DNA of 31,386 nucleotides. Source: a virus. Every line of letters begins with the position of its first letter. Within the stretch, counting starts at the first letter, position 1. A program made the translations under genes and the position numbers. The stretch is taken from positions 1 through 31,386 of IMG/VR virus record IMGVR_UViG_3300030101_002514. The stretch is one strand, 5' to 3'. Below are positions 2,114-12,487 of this stretch, piece by piece. Under the pieces are notes generated by a model. It was not told where the DNA came from. It saw only the letters and a list, made by a program, of their open reading frames with translations, and did not search any database.

Positions 2114-2536
2114 ATGCCAAGCACAGGATTAATGAATGGAACTCTGCTTGTACTTCAGATCAGTACAGACGGCAGTTCATTTACAAATCTCGGACATTCA
2201 ACTTCAGCATCTTTATCATTTAATTTAGATACACCTGAGGCGACTTCCAAAGATAGTGGCGGTTATCGTGAAGTTATCGCAGGAGCAAGATCAATCGATA
2301 TTAGTTTTGATTCTTTGGTCGCTTATGATGATAGTGTTGATGTTGATACTATGATAGGACACGCAAATAATAGAACAAAAATTCACGCTAGATTTGGGAC
2401 TGCTGTAAGTGGTGATACTACTTATGCAGTTCAAGGATTTATCAGTTCTATTGATTATACAGCAGATGCAGAAGCACCAATAACATTTAGTGGTACTTTC
2501 ACTTCAACTGGCGCTGTTTCTGTAGGTACTAACTAA
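2114..2536 (+). CDS. Major tail tube protein (TP901-1/HK97 type)
   Basis: 140 residues. The pattern is typical of siphovirus tail tube proteins: a short N-terminal strand with L-L-V-L-Q-I-S, a T-S-A-S-L-S-F-N-L segment, a T-P-E-A-T-S-K-D-S-G-G-Y-R-E stretch (normally [T/N]-x-x-x-x-[T/D]-K-D-S-x-G), and a C-terminal F-S-G-T-F-T-S-T-G motif. It polymerises as hexameric rings around the tape measure to form the tail tube. The position directly upstream of the tail assembly chaperone and tape measure genes is the standard siphovirus order, which supports the call. Confidence 0.88.
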   Translation: MPSTGLMNGTLLVLQISTDGSSFTNLGHSTSASLSFNLDTPEATSKDSGGYREVIAGARSIDISFDSLVAYDDSVDVDTMIGHANNRTKIHARFGTAVSGDTTYAVQGFISSIDYTADAEAPITFSGTFTSTGAVSVGTN

Positions 2537-2575: not shown

Positions 2576-2947
2576 ATGAATAGTAAAAGAGGTTATGTAG
2601 ATGTAGAAATTGGAGGGCGCAAAAGAACCCTCCATTTTTCTATGAATTTTTGGTGTCATTTTACAGAATCGTTAAAAATTAATCTTAATGATTTAGATAA
2701 ATTATTTTCTAATACATCATTTAATATGTCAACTATAAGAGGTATTATATACTCTGGTCTAGTTGCATTTGATAAAGAAGAAAAAAATAATATTGATTAT
2801 GATAAATATGATGTTGGTAATTGGCTTGAAAATTTTGATCAAGAGCAATTAACAAAAATTATGTCAGCTTTAACACAATCAAAAGTTTTAGGTAATTCTT
2901 TAAATATGGGTTTAGAAAGAGAAAATAAATCTGTAAAAAAAAAATAA
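2576..2947 (+). CDS. Tail assembly chaperone, short form (gpG-like)
   Basis: 123 residues, mostly helical, ending in V-K-K-K. Its position between the tail tube and tape measure genes is that of lambda gpG and its many unrelated-looking analogues, which bind the tape measure protein and recruit tube subunits. The last codons lie in a run of ten A residues (2935-2944) immediately before the TAA stop. A -1 slip there fuses this product to the downstream frame (see the next entry). The function is assigned by position and by the frameshift architecture rather than by sequence motifs. Confidence 0.82.
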   Translation: MNSKRGYVDVEIGGRKRTLHFSMNFWCHFTESLKINLNDLDKLFSNTSFNMSTIRGIIYSGLVAFDKEEKNNIDYDKYDVGNWLENFDQEQLTKIMSALTQSKVLGNSLNMGLERENKSVKKK

Positions 2948-3291
2948 AAACTGATTATTGGGAAGACATTCTTGACTATTACATTGGTCAATGTGGAATA
3001 ACACCCAACGTATTTTGGACAAATACGTTAAACGAAAATCAAAGACTTTCTGAATCATATCAAATAAAACAAAATTTAGAATGGGAACGTTTACGTTATC
3101 TTGCTACAATGATGATAAATTTAAAAGCTACAAAGCCAAGTCATAGAATACAACCAACAAAATTATTCAAACTACCACAAGACAATAAAATTAAAAAGAA
3201 AAAAATCAAACCATTAACAAAAGAAGAAGTTGACAATGTAATAAAAGATTGGGATAATACAATGAACACAGGAAAAATATCTAATATCTAA
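2576..3291 (+). CDS. Tail assembly chaperone, long form by -1 frameshift (gpGT-like)
   Basis: Reading 2576-2941 and then slipping -1 to re-read from 2941 gives a product of about 238 residues. The -1 frame is open from 2929 to the stop at 3291. The conserved part of the second frame begins well before its first ATG (3109), at D-Y-W-E-D-I-L-D-Y-Y-I-G, so it is not an independent gene. It carries the T-domain signature of this family: I-T-P-x-x-F-W near the start, a helix with E-W-E-R-L-R-Y-L-A, and then P-T-K-L-F-K-L-P-Q-D. The slip site is the run of ten A at 2935-2944; either ribosomal slippage or RNA polymerase slippage could give the product. Only a minor fraction of the long form is expected, as in lambda. 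Confidence 0.85.
2935..2944 (+). promoter_or_regulatory. A10 slippery sequence for programmed -1 frameshift
   Basis: Ten consecutive A residues lie directly before the TAA (2945) of the short chaperone. Tandem AAA lysine codons allow re-pairing one base back, giving A-AAA-TAA read as AAA-ATA-AAA. A weak hairpin (TTGAC 2972-2976 with GTCAA 2987-2991) lies downstream, but it is far from the site and may not matter. Confidence 0.8.
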
Positions 3292-3320: not shown

Positions 3321-5507
3321 ATGTTTCAAGATTTATTAATAAGACTAAGAGGTGATGCTACTGAACTTAAAGGTGCAGTAAAACAATCTAAAAAAGAAAT
3401 ATCTGGTTTTCAGAAACAATTAAACAATGTATCAAGCACACTTAAAACTGTTTTTGCTGGTGCGTTATCTGTAGCCGCAGTTCAATCTGTTAGACTTGCA
3501 AAAGATTTTACAAAATCTATGACACAAATCAAAGCACTCGTAGGTGTCGCAAGTGATGAAGTAGATGCAATGGGAGAAAGTGCAAGAAAAATGGCTGTCG
3601 AAACTGGCAGAAGTTCTAACGAAGCCGCTGAAGCGTTGTTCTTTATTACATCTGCTGGACTGCGTGGAGCTGACGCAATGAACGTATTAGAGGCATCTTT
3701 AAAAGCGTCTGCGGTAGGACTAGGGCAAACTAAATCAGTAGCAGACTTGGCAACTTCGGCACTTAACGCCTATGGCACAGAGAATCTTACTGCCATTGAA
3801 GCGACAGATATCTTAACTGCATCTGTAAGAGAAGGTAAATTAGAAGCTAGTGAACTAGCGGCGTCAATGGGTAGAGTTTTGCCTGTAGCGTCAAACATGG
3901 GTGTAGAGTTTCACGAAGTTGGTGCGGCGTTTGCAGCCATGTCGAGAACGGGTACTAATGCCGCAGAAGCGTCAACTTCTTTAAATGCTATATTGTCAGG
4001 TTTACTAAAACCAACACAAGATGCAGAAATGGCTCTATCTGAAATGGGTTTATCTAGTAAAGGTCTCAAACAACAGATCAAAGATGAAGGCTTGTTATCT
4101 GTACTTAAAACTCTCAAAACAGAATTTGATCAAAATTCAGATGCGTCTGCAAGAGTTTTTCCTAATTTGAGGGCGTTACGTGGTGTTTTAGATTTAGTAG
4201 GTACTGGTGCTGAAACAAACGCAAAAATATTTGATTCTTTATCTGTTTCTCTGGGTGCAACAGAAACAGCATTTGAATCTACTAAAGACGCATCTTTTGA
4301 ATTTGATAAAGAGTTATCAAGATTAAACGAAACTTTACTTGTCGTTGGTGAAAATGTATTGCCTGTTGTAAACTTTTTATTTAAAAAATTTAATGATGCA
4401 ATAACTGGCACAACTTTTTTCACAGAATTATATGAAAAAAATGTTAAATCACTTAATGATACATTAAAAGAATTTTCAAAAAATCAAAAAGATGTTAATG
4501 ATGAAATAAATGAAAGTGGTGAAGAAATCACACAATTAAATACTATATATCAATCATATAAAAAAACAATAAAAGAATTAAAAAATACTGAAGAAATACT
4601 TGGTGATGAATTTGATTTAACTGAAGAAAGCATAAAAGAAACACAAAAATCATTAATAGAGCTTTTAAATGCAAGTCAAAAAAATACAACTGCATTTCAA
4701 AAACTATCAACAGAATTAAAAAAATTACAATCAATACAATCTATAGATTTAGCAGAAAAATTAGGTTTAGAATCTGAAAAAGATTTAGATGATTTAGATA
4801 TTGATTTTTCTAGTTTAGAAAAAGAACTAGAAAATGTTAAGACATTCAATCAAATGTTAAATGAAATTCTTGATCAATCTAATAAAGATTTATCTGATAA
4901 AACACAAGAGCTTTTTGAAAGTCAAGCAAATCATAGACAAGAGCAATTTAAAAAATTTTCTGAAGATGCTTTAACTATAGCTGGTATTGTTCAAACAAAT
5001 TTAATTGCAATATCAGATAAATTAATAGAATCATTAGGTATTGCAGATCAAGGTGTTGCAGGTTTTGTAAAATCTATTGTTAAAATGTTAACCCAATTAA
5101 TAATTCAACAAACTATAAATAGTGCTGTACAAAAAATTATTGGTAAAGCACAAATAGGTACAAATTTTGGAGTAGCACAATCAAGTGCAATTACTTCTGC
5201 AACACAAACAGCGGCAACAATACCAGGTGGTTTTTTTGCTTTACCGGCCATGATTGCTTCAGCTATGGCACTCGTTGGAAGTGCATTCGGTGGAATCACA
5301 GCTTTTGCAAAAGGTGGTTTAGTAAAATCACCAGTCATGGGACTTGTCGGGGAAGCTGGGCCAGAGGCAATCATACCTTTAGATAGACTACCTAATTTGA
5401 TGTCTCAATCACAAAGAAGCACAAAAGGTGAATTTACATTAAGAGGTCAAGATTTAATATTAGCACTTGAAAGAGCAGGTGATTTTAGAACAAGAGTTAC
5501 TGGTTAA
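3321..5507 (+). CDS. Tape measure protein (TP901 family)
   Basis: 728 residues, the longest helical protein of the tail module. The N-terminal domain begins D-L-L-I-R-L-R-G-D-A-T-E-L and is followed by the TP901-type tape measure core at about 60-340 (repeated A-x-x-x-x-T-S-A and M-G-V-E-F-H-E-V-G-A-A-F motifs). A Lys/Glu/Asn-rich coiled-coil stretch spans about 360-545, then hydrophobic helices and the signature G-E-A-G-P-E-A-I-I-P-L at 676-686, found near the C-terminus of many tape measures. It sets tail length and is ejected with DNA. At the usual 1.5 angstrom per residue it implies a tail of roughly 110 nm (inference). An upstream out-of-frame ATG at 3314 reads only 13 codons, so 3321 is the start. 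Confidence 0.93.
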   Translation: MFQDLLIRLRGDATELKGAVKQSKKEISGFQKQLNNVSSTLKTVFAGALSVAAVQSVRLAKDFTKSMTQIKALVGVASDEVDAMGESARKMAVETGRSSNEAAEALFFITSAGLRGADAMNVLEASLKASAVGLGQTKSVADLATSALNAYGTENLTAIEATDILTASVREGKLEASELAASMGRVLPVASNMGVEFHEVGAAFAAMSRTGTNAAEASTSLNAILSGLLKPTQDAEMALSEMGLSSKGLKQQIKDEGLLSVLKTLKTEFDQNSDASARVFPNLRALRGVLDLVGTGAETNAKIFDSLSVSLGATETAFESTKDASFEFDKELSRLNETLLVVGENVLPVVNFLFKKFNDAITGTTFFTELYEKNVKSLNDTLKEFSKNQKDVNDEINESGEEITQLNTIYQSYKKTIKELKNTEEILGDEFDLTEESIKETQKSLIELLNASQKNTTAFQKLSTELKKLQSIQSIDLAEKLGLESEKDLDDLDIDFSSLEKELENVKTFNQMLNEILDQSNKDLSDKTQELFESQANHRQEQFKKFSEDALTIAGIVQTNLIAISDKLIESLGIADQGVAGFVKSIVKMLTQLIIQQTINSAVQKIIGKAQIGTNFGVAQSSAITSATQTAATIPGGFFALPAMIASAMALVGSAFGGITAFAKGGLVKSPVMGLVGEAGPEAIIPLDRLPNLMSQSQRSTKGEFTLRGQDLILALERAGDFRTRVTG

Positions 5508-5509
5508 TT

Positions 5510-7870
5510 ATGTCTAATTATGGAGAAAAATACGGTGTAAATTTTTTTGATGTAGATGAAAATAAATTTCGTTTACAGATATTAGAATATGGTTACGGTG
5601 GTGATTCATCTACAAATCTTACACTAGCTAAGAATCCAATCACAATTACTTATGAACAAGATGATGATTATTTCAAACCAATAATCGGATCAACTTGTAA
5701 GATTGATTTAATAATAGAAGATAAAACATTAGGTGACGAATGGGAAGATGAACCTACTAACTGGGAAGTTGCTGATTTTTTTTGGGAGTATGTTGATCTA
5801 ACTTTCTTAGCACCACAATCAGATAGAGAATTTAAAATAAAAGTACATAGAGAAATTTTAAATGGAACAAGTGATGCGTATGCTGTAGCAAATAGATTAA
5901 AAGATACATCTGTAGATTTTACTGCTAAATTAAAAGTAGGTGATTTAATTATTAATACAACTACAGGAGCATCAACAACTGTTGCACAAGTAAGTTCTGC
6001 AACAATTATTAAATTAAGTGCTGATATTTTTGCAGATGCAGGTGGTGAAACTTATGAAATATTTAGAAACTTATGGACTGGATTCATAGTTCAAGACAGT
6101 TACACATTTCCTATTGCAAACTATCCATTTCAGATAAGCGTTTATGCTACTGATCTTATTGGTACTTTAGACGGTTATACTTATGATCTAACTACTAATT
6201 CACCGACTGCTTTTGCTTCTATACAGAATTGTCTTAAAAATATTAATGTTCAAGATGCAGAGGGTACTGCTGTAAAAAGTTTAGAGTTTGGTTATAAGGT
6301 TCTATGTAGATTAAATTATTTTACGGTTTCAGCAGGTTCTTATACATCAAATGATAATCCTTATACATTGACACACATAAATTTTGTTGATGCGTTTAAA
6401 GATGAAAATTCTAATTTCTTAGATTGTAAAACAATATTAATATCATTATTACAAATGTTTAATTGTCGCATATTCCAACACGAAGCAACTTGGACAATAA
6501 TAGATAACGCTTCTTTATCTCTTAGTTCTTTTAATGATAGTGGTGGTTCTTATTCAAAAGAATTTAAAGTATATAGCAAGGCAGGATCACTTATTGGTAC
6601 TGAAGCTATTACTTCACCAGTTGTAAATATTAATTCATCACAGAGCAGTTCTACAATACAACCTATGAATAATGATTTATTGAAAAGAATTAAACCTCCT
6701 ACAATAAGACAAAAGAATCAGATAAATATAAAACACCAGTTAAAAAAGACTATCACAAATGGTGGTTTTGAGACTACATCTTCACCAACTGGTAGCACAC
6801 CAAGTTATGGTAATGACGTTGGTACTTGGTCTATCGTTGATAAATCAATAACCTTTGGTGTTGATGTTGAAGCTGTTGATACGTCAATTTCACCTCCAGT
6901 CACTTTCGGTAAACCTGCATATCAAGGATCATTCAGTTTATTATCTATAGGTTCTTCATCATCTACATCAACATTTGTTGCAACAAATAATACTGGTAAC
7001 ATTGGATCAACTACAGAAGAAACTATTTTATCTTTTGCAACAAGAGGATTTTCACCTGATCTTTCATCTGATCCTACTGGACAAACACCACTGAATAATA
7101 TAGGTTATACGATTAAGTTTCAGATACTACTTGGTGGTGTTCATTATTGGAACAATTCTACTGGTGAATGGACATCAAGCGTAACAACAAATTTTATATT
7201 TGATTCTACAAATGACGAATGGGTAAGAAGAGAAATTAAGATGAGTAATGCACCAACTACTGGTGCAGTAGAGATAAAACTTTTAGTATCACAAGAAAGT
7301 GCATACGGTAATTCTAATTTTAGAATGTATTATGATGATTTCACATTACAAAGCAGTAGTGACTTAGAATATTTAGATACAGAGGTTAAGATTGTAAAAA
7401 CAGAATTTAAAAATAATAATGCAGTATTGAAATCTGTAGAAAATATATTTGGTACAATTCAAGATGCAAAATATAGTAATTGTTTAGTTGATGCTAGTGG
7501 TAATGTTATATTTCAATTTAAAGGTTTTGATGAAGGCGTTGCACTCGGAAACCCTTTAGAAGTAAAAATGAATCAACAACGATTGAATGATTTTGCAAAA
7601 AACAATGAAAGATATGAAGGTACATTTAGAAAAGTAAAAGATAGCGATAATTTCACAACACCAATAAGTATGCTTACATTACCCAAAATAAGTTTTGATA
7701 CGTTTAGTTTAGATAATCATTGTGCTATTGATAATTTAAAATATAATGTTTCTGAAAACAGATATAGTTTAAGGATGCACGTACCTGATCAATCAAACTT
7801 CACAGATGCTAATTTATTTAATGATATAGAAGTTAGAAGAAACTTCTACGAAGATAAACCTAAAGATTAA
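5510..7870 (+). CDS. Tail hub/tip structural protein with lectin-like domain
   Basis: 786 residues, starting two bases after the tape measure stop codon. The position after the tape measure is that of distal tail/hub proteins (Dit/Tal). The N-terminal region (about 1-250, containing N-P-I-T-I-T-Y-E-Q-D-D-D-Y-F-K-P and F-L-A-P-Q-S-D-R-E-F-K-I-K) has the beta-rich look of a baseplate hub protein. An insertion at about 415-612 starts with N-G-G-F-E and ends with M-Y-Y-D-D-F-T-L, the usual edges of a carbohydrate-binding jelly roll (CBM4/9-like). The C-terminal ~170 residues are again beta-rich. Likely role: closing the tail tube and attaching to the cell surface. The hub assignment is positional; the lectin-like fold is inferred from its edge motifs. 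The stop codon overlaps that of a convergent gene by four bases. Confidence 0.72.
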   Translation: MSNYGEKYGVNFFDVDENKFRLQILEYGYGGDSSTNLTLAKNPITITYEQDDDYFKPIIGSTCKIDLIIEDKTLGDEWEDEPTNWEVADFFWEYVDLTFLAPQSDREFKIKVHREILNGTSDAYAVANRLKDTSVDFTAKLKVGDLIINTTTGASTTVAQVSSATIIKLSADIFADAGGETYEIFRNLWTGFIVQDSYTFPIANYPFQISVYATDLIGTLDGYTYDLTTNSPTAFASIQNCLKNINVQDAEGTAVKSLEFGYKVLCRLNYFTVSAGSYTSNDNPYTLTHINFVDAFKDENSNFLDCKTILISLLQMFNCRIFQHEATWTIIDNASLSLSSFNDSGGSYSKEFKVYSKAGSLIGTEAITSPVVNINSSQSSSTIQPMNNDLLKRIKPPTIRQKNQINIKHQLKKTITNGGFETTSSPTGSTPSYGNDVGTWSIVDKSITFGVDVEAVDTSISPPVTFGKPAYQGSFSLLSIGSSSSTSTFVATNNTGNIGSTTEETILSFATRGFSPDLSSDPTGQTPLNNIGYTIKFQILLGGVHYWNNSTGEWTSSVTTNFIFDSTNDEWVRREIKMSNAPTTGAVEIKLLVSQESAYGNSNFRMYYDDFTLQSSSDLEYLDTEVKIVKTEFKNNNAVLKSVENIFGTIQDAKYSNCLVDASGNVIFQFKGFDEGVALGNPLEVKMNQQRLNDFAKNNERYEGTFRKVKDSDNFTTPISMLTLPKISFDTFSLDNHCAIDNLKYNVSENRYSLRMHVPDQSNFTDANLFNDIEVRRNFYEDKPKD

Positions 7871-8988: not shown

Positions 8989-9792
8989 CTAAAATAGGTT
9001 TAATTGTTGCTTTGACCAATCGTGACAGATGTCCATAATACGTGATCTTTTTTTAAAATTTATTTCTTTATTAAATAATAGTTTTTCAAAAACAGTTGGT
9101 ATGTTTGAAACCAACTGTAAATTCAAATGTTTTTTTAAATTCAAATCATTAATCTCATCAAAACATTTACGTATTAAATATTTTTCTTGTGGTTTATTTA
9201 TTTCAGACCAATCATATTGTATAAAATAATTAAATACTTTTTCATTAATATATGGTGCAATTAATATTTTTTTGTATTCTTTACTTAACATTTTAAGTTG
9301 TTCAACGCCTGCAGGATTATCACTTGAAAAATATTTTTTACGAAACTTATCAAATTCTATTTTAGTATGTATATGATTTATCATTGCAGATTTGCTCAAT
9401 CCGTAATGACCATCTGCGGCGACACCTGAAATAATTACTTTTTCTTCAATGCAAGGAAACACATACAAGAAAGGCCATGTACACTCAAACTGCGTTTTTT
9501 TCTTACATTTATATTTATTAGATAATTTTTTAAAATCATTAATAATGTTTTTATCAGAAACAGATATTTTTGTAAACTTAATATTGTGTTTTTTACATAT
9601 TTCTTCAGCTTTTTTTGAATCATATGTTTCTATGTTGTTTACATAAAAAGTATAAGCGTGAATCTTTAAATTCAATCTTTTTGCTGTAAATAAACAACTA
9701 CTGCTGTCAACACCACCAGATAATAAAATTGCTACTTGTTTATTATTTTTAACATCTTTTCTTATAATTTCATATAATATTTTATCTATCAT
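8989..9792 (-). CDS. Asparagine-synthetase-like PP-loop amidoligase without glutaminase domain
   Basis: 267 residues. The PP-loop S-G-G-V-D-S-S lies at 25-31, followed by a Rossmann-like strand pattern, and S-G-V-A-A-D-G-H-Y-G at 122-131 matches the S-G-x-G-A-D-E-x-x-G-G motif of AsnB synthetase domains. Family members activate a carboxylate as acyl-adenylate and transfer nitrogen or an amine to it (asparagine, beta-lactam and carbapenam synthetases). The N-terminal class II glutaminase domain of true AsnB is absent, so the amine donor would be ammonia or another amine. It is the last large gene of the operon with the CmoA-like enzyme and DNA methyltransferase, and its ATG overlaps the resolvase stop codon (ATGA, 9789-9792). 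I infer that it amidates a carboxylated base. Other PP-loop roles such as tRNA modification remain possible. Confidence 0.75.
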   Translation of the reverse strand: MIDKILYEIIRKDVKNNKQVAILLSGGVDSSSCLFTAKRLNLKIHAYTFYVNNIETYDSKKAEEICKKHNIKFTKISVSDKNIINDFKKLSNKYKCKKKTQFECTWPFLYVFPCIEEKVIISGVAADGHYGLSKSAMINHIHTKIEFDKFRKKYFSSDNPAGVEQLKMLSKEYKKILIAPYINEKVFNYFIQYDWSEINKPQEKYLIRKCFDEINDLNLKKHLNLQLVSNIPTVFEKLLFNKEINFKKRSRIMDICHDWSKQQLNLF

Positions 9793-10501: not shown

Positions 10502-10743
10502 AATACTTTTTTTAATATGTCATATTTAACTTCATCTAATTCTTTGATTTTGCTTAAAAGAATCAACTGTTCTTGTTTTGCTTTTGCTCTTTCTTCGTCA
10601 GTAGAATCTATACCAAGATTACATTCAATGTTCGCCATAGCTTTCATGAGTGCATCTATCTTTGCTTTTGTTTGTTTGTTAGTGTTGTAACTACCAAACA
10701 GTTTTCGTTTTTCGTTTTGTGATAATTCGTCTGTTGTTACCAT
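10498..10743 (-). CDS. Small helical hypothetical protein (81 aa)
   Basis: 81 residues, charged and helical. The K-Q-T-K-A-K-I-D-A-L-M-K-A-M segment and the C-terminal L-S-K-I-K-E-L-D-E-V-K-Y-D-I-L-K-K suggest a coiled coil. The ATG shares one base with the methyltransferase stop (TAATG), and its end overlaps the next gene, so it is translated as part of the same coupled series. No family recognised. It could be an accessory subunit for its neighbours, but nothing in the sequence shows this. Confidence 0.66.
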   Translation of the reverse strand: MVTTDELSQNEKRKLFGSYNTNKQTKAKIDALMKAMANIECNLGIDSTDEERAKAKQEQLILLSKIKELDEVKYDILKKVL

Positions 10744-11822
10744 TATTTTAAAATTGTGTTATAAATATGCTTTGCTATTGCATACATCATCAGAGGAGGT
10801 ACGCTTCTGCCTAGTCTCTCCCATTTCTTAGCGAATGTTTCGCCGAGATAATAGTCATAAGGAAAGCTACACACACTCTTTAATTCGTCAATAGTCAAAG
10901 TTCTTTTTATATGTGGGTGCCATAGTTCAGCACTTGTTGTTACAGTTCTACATGGTTTATTTGCGTCAAGACGTATGCGTCCTGCACCACTGATCTTTTC
11001 TTTTATTCTATCACCACAAGCTAACATACTTTCGCCAGGCTGTTGAAGATCATATACTCTTTGCTGTTCTTTAGATAATTTTTTATAAGAACTATCTATT
11101 TCTATCTTAATATTATCAATGACTTCTTGAATAGTTATTTTATCTTTTATCTTTTCGGGATACGTTATGTTCTTCAGTATATCGTTACGAACACCTATAA
11201 ATATTATTCTTTCTCTAGCTTGTGGCACATAATAATCACTTGAATCTAATACTCTATATTCTACGCTGTAACCACAAGAAATTAAATTATAATAAATTGT
11301 TTTTTTATGTTCGTCAAATATATGTGTTTGTGCTGAACCAAGAAGATTTTGTGATGCACCCATAGTGAGACCTTTTACGTTTTCAGCTACAAAAACTCTT
11401 GGCTGTACATCTCTGACTAATCTTGCAAATTCAAAAAACAAATCATCTGTTCTCTGTACTGTGTCTGAATATTTTTTTTCTTGACCCCATGCTTTTTCTC
11501 GTAAACCCGCCATGCTAAAAGAAGCACAAGGTGGAGAACCGTCAAGAATATCAAGTTCACCTTTTTTAATATTTAATTCTTTAAATATATCTTCTGCTTT
11601 TAATTGTCTCACATCTTGTGTGAAGATATGCGTGTCTGGATAATTCTTAGCATAACATTCATAAGCGTCTTTTATAAATTCATTTATTGCAAGTATGTTA
11701 CCACCTGCCAATCTGTAGCCAGTAGATGAGCCGCCACAACCTGCAAATAATGATATGACTTTGAAAAAATTTTGTTGACTTTTTCGTTTTACTAAATCTA
11801 AACTATAATTAAATGGTTTCAT
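10743..11822 (-). CDS. C5-cytosine DNA methyltransferase with Arg in motif X (candidate carboxymethyltransferase)
   Basis: 359 residues with all core motifs of C5 enzymes: motif I L-F-A-G-C-G-G (25-31), motif IV G-S-P-P-C99-A-S-F-S with the catalytic Cys, motif VI E147-N-V, motif VIII Q201-A-R-E-R, a target-recognition region at about 215-310, and motif X near the end. Motif X normally reads G-N-(S/A)-V. Here it is G338-R339-S-V-P-P; the codon at 10808-10806 is AGA, so Asn cannot arise from a single base error. A Lys at the equivalent Asn (N374) of M.MpeI confers use of carboxy-SAM and yields 5-carboxymethylcytosine. The upstream gene encodes a carboxy-SAM synthase homologue, coupled by an ATGA overlap (11819-11822). 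I see no partner restriction enzyme. The C5 family is certain; carboxymethyl transfer is inferred. Confidence 0.95.
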   Translation of the reverse strand: MKPFNYSLDLVKRKSQQNFFKVISLFAGCGGSSTGYRLAGGNILAINEFIKDAYECYAKNYPDTHIFTQDVRQLKAEDIFKELNIKKGELDILDGSPPCASFSMAGLREKAWGQEKKYSDTVQRTDDLFFEFARLVRDVQPRVFVAENVKGLTMGASQNLLGSAQTHIFDEHKKTIYYNLISCGYSVEYRVLDSSDYYVPQARERIIFIGVRNDILKNITYPEKIKDKITIQEVIDNIKIEIDSSYKKLSKEQQRVYDLQQPGESMLACGDRIKEKISGAGRIRLDANKPCRTVTTSAELWHPHIKRTLTIDELKSVCSFPYDYYLGETFAKKWERLGRSVPPLMMYAIAKHIYNTILK

Positions 11823-12487
11823 TTTATTAAAATCCAGCTTTTAAAATTAAGAGATTGAAAAAAACATTTAATCTTTTTAAAACCTGCTTCGTAAAACATA
11901 TTTAAATTTTCTTTTTCACTTAATGGTCTCATGAGACATCTTAGATCAATTTGTTTTTCTAAAATTTCTTTATGTGTAAAATTTTTAAGTTTTTGATCAT
12001 AATGTGTAAATGTAAATATGTCTTCTAAAAAACCATCATCTATATATATTTTTTCAGCAATGATACAAGCACCACCTTTATTGAGATTTTTACAAACTTT
12101 TTTTAACAATTTTTCTCTCTGCGATATTTCTAAAAATTGTAATGTAAATATCAATAGTATAAAATTTGTGTTATAAAATTTTATTCTATCATCTGTTATG
12201 TCTCTTAAATAAAAAGAAAGATTCTTAGAAGATGTTTCTTTTAATAGATTATCTGATATGTCGTAGCCTACGAATGATGCGTTGTTTTTATTTTGTTTAT
12301 GTAACTGTTTTAGAAGAAGGCCTGTAGAACAACCAAGATCATATACGTTTGAATTTTTAGTTATAAAATATGTTGATATTTTTTGTATTAAATCAATTAA
12401 AGAATGATAATTAGATACACTTTTATTTATGTGATCATCAAAATTATCTATCGTATCAAAGCTGAAGTTCTGTTTGTTTGTTTTCAT
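11819..12487 (-). CDS. cmoA: CmoA-like carboxy-S-adenosylmethionine synthase homologue
   Basis: 222 residues, collinear with bacterial CmoA (about 247 aa). Matching segments are H-I-N-K-S-V-S-N-Y near the start, V-Y-D-L-G-C-S-T-G (48-56, SAM-binding), F-T-L-Q-F-L-E (114-120), L-N-K-G-G-A-C-I-I-A-E-K (135-146), H-Y-D-Q-K (162-166), A-G-F (201-203) and the ending F-F-Q-S-L-N-F-K-S-W. CmoA converts SAM and prephenate into carboxy-SAM, normally for tRNA wobble-uridine modification together with CmoB, which is absent here. By my alignment E. coli Arg199, which contacts the carboxylate, corresponds to Gln179; Arg183 lies one helical turn on and might substitute. The next gene is a DNA methyltransferase with a substitution suited to carboxy-SAM, so supplying that cofactor is the likely role. 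Use as an ordinary SAM methyltransferase cannot be excluded. Confidence 0.82.
   Translation of the reverse strand: MKTNKQNFSFDTIDNFDDHINKSVSNYHSLIDLIQKISTYFITKNSNVYDLGCSTGLLLKQLHKQNKNNASFVGYDISDNLLKETSSKNLSFYLRDITDDRIKFYNTNFILLIFTLQFLEISQREKLLKKVCKNLNKGGACIIAEKIYIDDGFLEDIFTFTHYDQKLKNFTHKEILEKQIDLRCLMRPLSEKENLNMFYEAGFKKIKCFFQSLNFKSWILIK

Follow-up and report, generated by a model that had tools for sequence, protein, structure and literature searches.

We are close to certain, judging from homologous sequences, that the tail assembly chaperone of the phage studied here is produced by programmed -1 recoding at a run of ten A (A10). The DNA analyzed, called the window below, is the whole of a 31,386-base virus record; it has 30% GC and the source phage appears to be marine. 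Most products would stop at the TAA behind the run and give the short protein G, while a minority would enter the -1 frame and give a G-T fusion, as in the G/GT pair of phage lambda. The run would be held at 9 or 10 A because at nine or ten A the RNA polymerase can slip and insert an extra one, and the resulting 11-A mRNA would yield the same fusion protein as a ribosomal -1 slip. In the lineage of the window and its relatives with A runs, an appreciable part of the fusion would come from transcriptional slippage, with ribosomal -1 slippage acting beside it on the in-phase heptamers (A_AAA_AAA or A_AAA_AAG) inside the run. Sister lineages would use G_GGA_AAG, presumably through the ribosome as in lambda. 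For this mixed explanation as a whole (A10 recoding, a run held in length, slippage of both polymerase and ribosome) we see a slightly better than even chance; the frame, the homology, the pattern of run lengths, the avoidance of long runs in other genes and the interspersion of site types are observed, while we infer which machine slips and in what ratio the products are made. The features involved are the following.

2114..2536, plus strand: major tail (tube) protein, upstream neighbour of G (phrog_1407, E 4.8e-26; PF06199)
2576..2947, plus strand: G, short tail assembly chaperone open reading frame, 123 aa, C-terminal V-K-K-K-TAA (phrog_2115 'tail protein', E 1.9e-8; 67-member alignment)
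2929..3291, plus strand: T, -1 frame extension without a start codon of its own (phrog_16333, E 2.3e-6; -1 frame in 321/321 stretches)
2935..2944, plus strand: A10 slip site (9 or 10 A in 78/80 distinct junctions without GGGAAA)
2935..2941, plus strand: upstream in-phase heptamer A_AAA_AAA, the first of two that overlap (read from the sequence)
2938..2944, plus strand: in-phase heptamer A_AAA_AAA adjacent to the stop (last AAA replaced by AAG in 36/38 distinct junctions of the window's clade)
2945..2947, plus strand: zero-frame stop TAA, immediately 3' of the A run (read from the sequence)
3321..5507, plus strand: tape measure protein, downstream neighbour of T (phrog_1533, E 1.8e-48; PF10145)

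The location of G and T between the major tail and tape measure genes points to a tail assembly chaperone recoding site similar to that of lambda G/GT, and we take them as a pair of this type, a role assigned from position, frame and homologues. PHROG 16333, matched by T, is a family of unknown function. Pfam gave no match for G itself; among its relatives, 4 of 17 had weak matches to PF11836 (Phage_TAC_11), the best at E 0.015. The AlphaFold model of G (pLDDT 80.9) matched two BFVD entries annotated as tail assembly chaperones (E 6.4e-4 and 2.8e-3), the other matches being tail tube or uncharacterized proteins. When this model was compared to solved structures, the HK97 chaperone 2ob9 was the top match with VIA-align, a weak one (Z 3.6, 82 residues, rmsd 4.5), and Foldseek against PDB found nothing at E <=0.001. 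T encodes a helical domain (KIKTDYWEDILDYYIGQ...; AlphaFold pLDDT 87.8, pTM 0.54) with three good BFVD matches, none with an annotated function. Profiles of G and T recovered from the PDB sequences only weak matches to unrelated chains. In tblastn searches of 50,697 phage records no match was found for the G and T of the window (E up to 0.01) or for a distant G (L193) and a distant T (L115) (E up to 0.1). The capsid and the tape measure match many phages, every one at less than 60% identity.

Elsewhere in the window, 163-1653 and 5510-7870 code for a Peptidase_S74-domain tail-fibre-like protein and a 786-aa tail-module protein, the latter with no Pfam match at E 0.001. The minus strand codes for an Asn-synthase/QueC-like protein (8989-9792; PF00733, PF06508) and, nearby, for a C-5 cytosine DNA methylase (10743-11822; PF00145) and a second methyltransferase (11819-12487; PF13847). 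These genes are possibly a DNA or tRNA modification cluster.

The original prediction had described the A10 at 2935-2944 with a chaperone ending in K-K-K-stop, and a -1 frame free of stops from 2929 to 3291 whose T signature begins ahead of any ATG. Both readings are borne out. Counted from the G stop at 2945, the -1 frame stays open between -16 and +344, with the T stop at 3289-3291. The base after the run is T; if a -1 slip takes place at the run's end, reading of the T gene proceeds from the ATA at 2944. The first ATG, GTG or TTG in this frame is the ATG at 3109, already inside the conserved domain. We compared the first 76 T codons with those of the nearest relative among the matches listed (L001), in which G ends in A9G-TAG and not in A10-TAA, and found 7, 2 and 22 substitutions at codon positions 1, 2 and 3. 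This third-position bias indicates that T is translated and that it is coding right after the run. Transcripts expressing T would be those with 11 A (or 8 A). Transcripts of 9 or 11 A had been proposed as the signal of slippage; the 11-A form keeps that value, while the 9-A form leads to the +1 frame, closed after 2 codons.

Relatives were collected from IMG/VR and one genome collection, giving 324 loci, two stretches of the window's own record included. The searches retained the best 80 of 437, the best 80 of at least 565 and the best 80 of at least 533 matches, and further site types are possible. With the window the set comprised 325 sequences, 321 of them with both G and T (L100, L108, L184 and L202 were left out); since some contigs are represented more than once, and the window's junction three times, the number of distinct junctions is 145. 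Among the matches listed, T was in the -1 frame in all 321 stretches. Every one of the 145 distinct junctions had an in-phase X_XXY_YYZ heptamer within the overlap, and only 3 had a possible start in the T frame ahead of the T core, GTG or TTG and in no case ATG. The ever-present heptamer and the near absence of T starts indicate that T is made as a continuation of G after a -1 shift, and the programmed -1 frameshift originally predicted for the tail chaperone is strongly supported by both counts. Comparison with related phages had been suggested as a check, on the grounds that relatives lacking both the A run and the open -1 frame, or a separate start for T, would speak against a frameshift; the relatives without A run do have the -1 frame, with a different slip site, and none of the distinct junctions offers T an ATG of its own ahead of the core. 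Three family members (L143, L144 and L145) are on contigs that had been assigned to MAGs of Rhodobiaceae, Woesearchaeota and Gammaproteobacteria. The bin of L144 is doubtful because its junction is identical to that of the viral contigs L058 and L059 over the 45 bases compared.

Two kinds of site are found at these junctions. GGGAAA heptamers are present in 65 of the 145, as GGGAAAG in 62 and GGGAAAC in 3; GGGAAAG (G_GGA_AAG) is the slippery site of phage lambda itself. The 80 others comprise 35 A9, 43 A10, one A7G (L208) and one A6G (L217), with no run of 8 A or of more than 10 A in these 80 junctions among the matches listed. For a ribosomal heptamer seven A, or six A and a G, would already suffice. 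The contrast with lambda that was originally drawn for transcriptional slippage has to be qualified, as homologues of the same genes use the GGGAAA heptamers. Both kinds are interspersed over a tree of 69 groups, with 9 parsimony changes compared to a shuffled mean of 24.6. (Four junctions, L034, L054, L076 and L248, were too short for this tree; the G alignment took 67 of the 69 groups and a second alignment 61.) The A-run sites form 9 separate clades, several of the separating nodes having low support. The clearest case is L304 (GAA AAA AAA AAT), nested with a support of 0.99 in a GGGAAAG clade; L180, which belongs to that clade, reads GAG GGA AAG at the corresponding position. From this distribution we lean somewhat towards a family that has repeatedly swapped between A9-A10 sites and the kind of site used by lambda. 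GC composition was considered as the cause of the site type and discarded: the GGGAAA groups are richer, with a mean of 0.361, but their range of 0.307-0.424 overlaps that of the A-run groups, 0.289-0.389.

The A10 is the sole coding-strand run of 9 or more A in the genes of the window (picked by eye from the list of open reading frames), where synonymous shuffling expects 5.5; one such run or none was obtained in 2 of 500 shuffles. The same comparison with synonymous shuffles was made for the other genes of these phages, about 310 kb in 332-335 CDS segments. Runs of A7 and A8 were as frequent as expected (110 vs 111 and 49 vs 45) and A6 was in excess (361 vs 299), whereas A9 or longer appeared only 2 times vs 17.0 expected, a depletion of ~8-fold. 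The junctions therefore stand just above a threshold that other coding sequence stays below. In these other genes, no avoidance of heptamers depending on phase was seen (in-phase A7, 53 vs 56; in-phase A6G, 22 vs 18). T runs follow the prediction from slippage only partly: the ratios to expectation were 0.70 for T7, 0.31 for T8 and 0.95 for T9 (3 vs 3.1), with 0 vs 1.2 for T10 or longer, and T9 or longer divided into 0 vs 2.3 at A-run loci and 3 vs 2.2 at GGGAAA loci. None of the 145 junctions has a T run as slip site. A rare second long A run is found in L057, L058, L059 and L144, in which the T gene ends in A9 directly before its own TAA, 317 bases past the G stop.

The 34 junctions that have neither AAAAAAG nor GGGAAA all carry 9-10 A, and all 67 with a shorter run or none carry one or the other heptamer (Fisher 1e-11 for the association, junctions being counted without correction for kinship). 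Given an in-phase A heptamer, shuffles put the probability of a run of at least 9 at p=0.156 (17.0/109.2); to find a long run in at least 9 of 11 clades then has a binomial P=2e-6, if clades are assumed independent. Besides, 13 A9 sites are followed by C (CAA/GAA AAA AAA AC) and the run contains a single in-phase heptamer, yet it is exactly 9 and never 7 or 8. Eleven of these 13 have no other strong heptamer in the overlap; L248 and L249 have AAAAAAG further down.

Published lengths for slippage are in the same range. In a large fraction of bacterial genomes, selection against A or T runs becomes apparent at nine, according to an excerpt of PMC1088944 that itself names replication slippage as a possible cause of the avoidance; in the phages studied here the avoidance of long runs elsewhere may likewise come from replication slippage. 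Polymerase slippage is described as efficient in vivo at nine A (PMC5009743, excerpt), and bacterial RNA polymerase as needing at least 7 T, and more in the case of A (PMC6260861, excerpt). The latter excerpt cites one study in which insertion on 7-11 A had at least double the efficiency of deletion, and one in vitro experiment at A11 in which deletions predominated with E. coli RNA polymerase. A single inserted A leads to the -1 frame.

A purely ribosomal -1 shift is the main competitor of the mixed explanation, and we consider it the less probable of the two, though a real possibility. The slip would be made by tRNA-Lys pairs, on A_AAA_AAA in the window and on A_AAA_AAG in relatives; additional A's would just offer more positions for slipping or re-pairing, and the adjacent stop or the lysines would act as a pause. 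A run of 9 or more A always holds an in-phase ribosomal heptamer. In the clade of the window a direct count finds AAG as the last Lys codon of 36 out of 38 distinct junctions, and in 9 of 11 groups, the alignment-column fraction being understated by a misaligned clade one residue longer; elsewhere in these 11 groups, AAG makes up 0-10% of the conserved Lys columns, with the exception of one T column at 45%. Family-wide, an in-phase AAG closes 42 of the 78 long runs, and 55 of these 78 reach the stop or fall one base short of it. Both the retained AAG and the place where the run ends favour the ribosome, as do sister lineages with GGGAAAG at the same place (L304 vs L180). The first A of the long runs falls on codon position 2 in 45 cases and on position 3 in 33, never on position 1. 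A purely transcriptional site would not require avoiding position 1, but this leans to the ribosome weakly at most, since just about a fifth would be expected there (3.6/17.0 from shuffles); moreover, the 78 runs are not independent. A varying direction of the shift is given as a sign of transcriptional slippage (PMC3711429, excerpt), and by the converse the constant -1 frame of the 321 stretches leans the same way. Also on the ribosomal side is an SD-like motif within 22 nt upstream, found in 11 of 35 A-run groups vs 0 of 32 GGGAAA groups (raw counts). In the L018 group (14 junctions) the sequence AAGGA lies ~9 nt ahead of an A_AAA_AAG heptamer, a spacing close to that of the upstream element of dnaX.

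What slippage of the ribosome by itself leaves unexplained are the 13 single-heptamer runs fixed at 9 and the exchange, in the window, of AAG for A_AAA_AAA, the less shifty of the two for the E. coli ribosome (PMC5009743, excerpt). It also has to work with no conserved downstream stimulator. Folding compared to synonymous shuffles gave a mean z of -0.30 in 30 A-run groups and +0.10 in 30 GGGAAA groups (62 of the 69 groups were covered), and RNAalifold across groups found no structure of note. Stimulators are not obligatory for -1 ribosomal frameshift sites. Plain dinucleotide shuffles of the 80 nt downstream had hinted at one (mean z -2.27 for GGGAAA and -1.03 for A-run groups), and the codon-preserving test attributes this signal to coding sequence. 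In the window the 100 nt 3' of the run do fold better than shuffles (z -2.88, and -3.15 compared to synonymous shuffles), and T contains at 3007-3029 a 9-bp hairpin, AACGTATTTTGGACAAATACGTT, common only to L001 among the groups shown; this hairpin is an unlikely stimulator because it is 62 nt past the slip site. The early remark that no strong downstream stimulator is evident holds for the family as a whole.

Sliding of ribosomes on poly(A)/polylysine, with no defined -1 slip, would fit the three consecutive Lys codons of the window's site, but in a purified E. coli system A11 was needed and A9 or A10 gave little product (PMC4363877, excerpt), the junctions never exceed A10 among the matches listed and the A9-then-C sites hold just two AAA codons; we find it improbable. 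More improbable still is the lack of any frameshift, T being either made separately by reinitiation or dead sequence. The G stop adjoins the T frame and the ATA at 2944 could serve as a rare start, but starts ahead of the T core are nearly absent, the stops of the A-run junctions are TAA or TAG in 78 of 78 and never TGA, and the substitutions in T are biased to third positions. A homopolymer error of assembly or sequencing could be suspected since the window lacks the G that follows the run in its nearest relative; we give it hardly any credence, as A10 followed by T is present also on separate contigs (L109, part of L176-L188, e.g. L176 and L188, and L286) and G and T keep one and the same relative frame throughout the stretches.

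We return to the mixed explanation. The suggestion that transcriptional slippage may contribute has gained indirect, comparative support, from the length held at 9-10 and the avoidance of A9 or longer elsewhere, and ribosomal slippage on the in-phase heptamers remains beside it. We consider it somewhat more probable than not that at the A9-A10 sites, including that of the window, the RNA polymerase slips in addition to the ribosome. A stronger version, in which polymerase slippage on A9-A10 runs locked in length sets the chaperone ratio and lineages have repeatedly exchanged it for ribosomal frameshifting of the lambda type at this position of the gene, would have somewhat less than an even chance.

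The frameshift itself is ordinary; the unusual part is an A run selected for its length and exchangeable with the site of lambda. Frameshifting of tail chaperones is generally regarded as ribosomal, and a 2004 survey is said to have dealt with frameshifts in tail genes. Our literature search, which covered titles and abstract openings of the papers listed and had subscription papers outside its scope, found no transcriptional slippage reported for a tail assembly chaperone. If the products come partly from mRNA with miscounted A's, it would be transcription that sets the chaperone ratio, which could then vary from host to host with the RNA polymerase. Besides, the family provides natural matched pairs (GGGAAAG vs A9 or A10 in the same gene, e.g. 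L180 and L304) for the study of swaps of recoding machine in evolution. Gene callers and frameshift finders would need to count such A runs as functional.

A system close to this one is lambda G/GT: the order of tail tube and tape measure genes, the short G with a -1 T extension and the slip at or near the end of G are alike, and 65 of the 145 homologous junctions have a GGGAAA heptamer, 62 of them GGGAAAG. Unlike lambda, the site in the window is A10 and not GGGAAAG, its G has no Pfam match and the PF11836 matches of the relatives are weak. Among bacterial systems, the A_AAA_AAG and A_n sites of IS elements are A runs usable by either mechanism (PMC3711429, excerpt); they differ in that they belong to transposases, with a shift direction that is unconserved in some families. 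Shigella spa13 (A10) and Citrobacter rodentium tssM1 (A11) share the run of 10-11 A, and transcriptional slippage gives there a longer product (PMC5009743, PMC6260861, PMC4256274, excerpts); unlike the phage tail chaperones these are bacterial secretion genes, and for tssM1 the altered transcripts were measured. In dnaX, Thermus thermophilus uses transcriptional slippage at nine A and E. coli ribosomal frameshifting at A_AAA_AAG (PMC5009743, PMC1088944, excerpts). The family of the window differs from this pair in that the shift makes the longer product and the slipping machine is proposed from sequence patterns; it resembles it in that homologous genes may arrive at the same end by either machine, the junctions described here having a long A run or a ribosomal heptamer.
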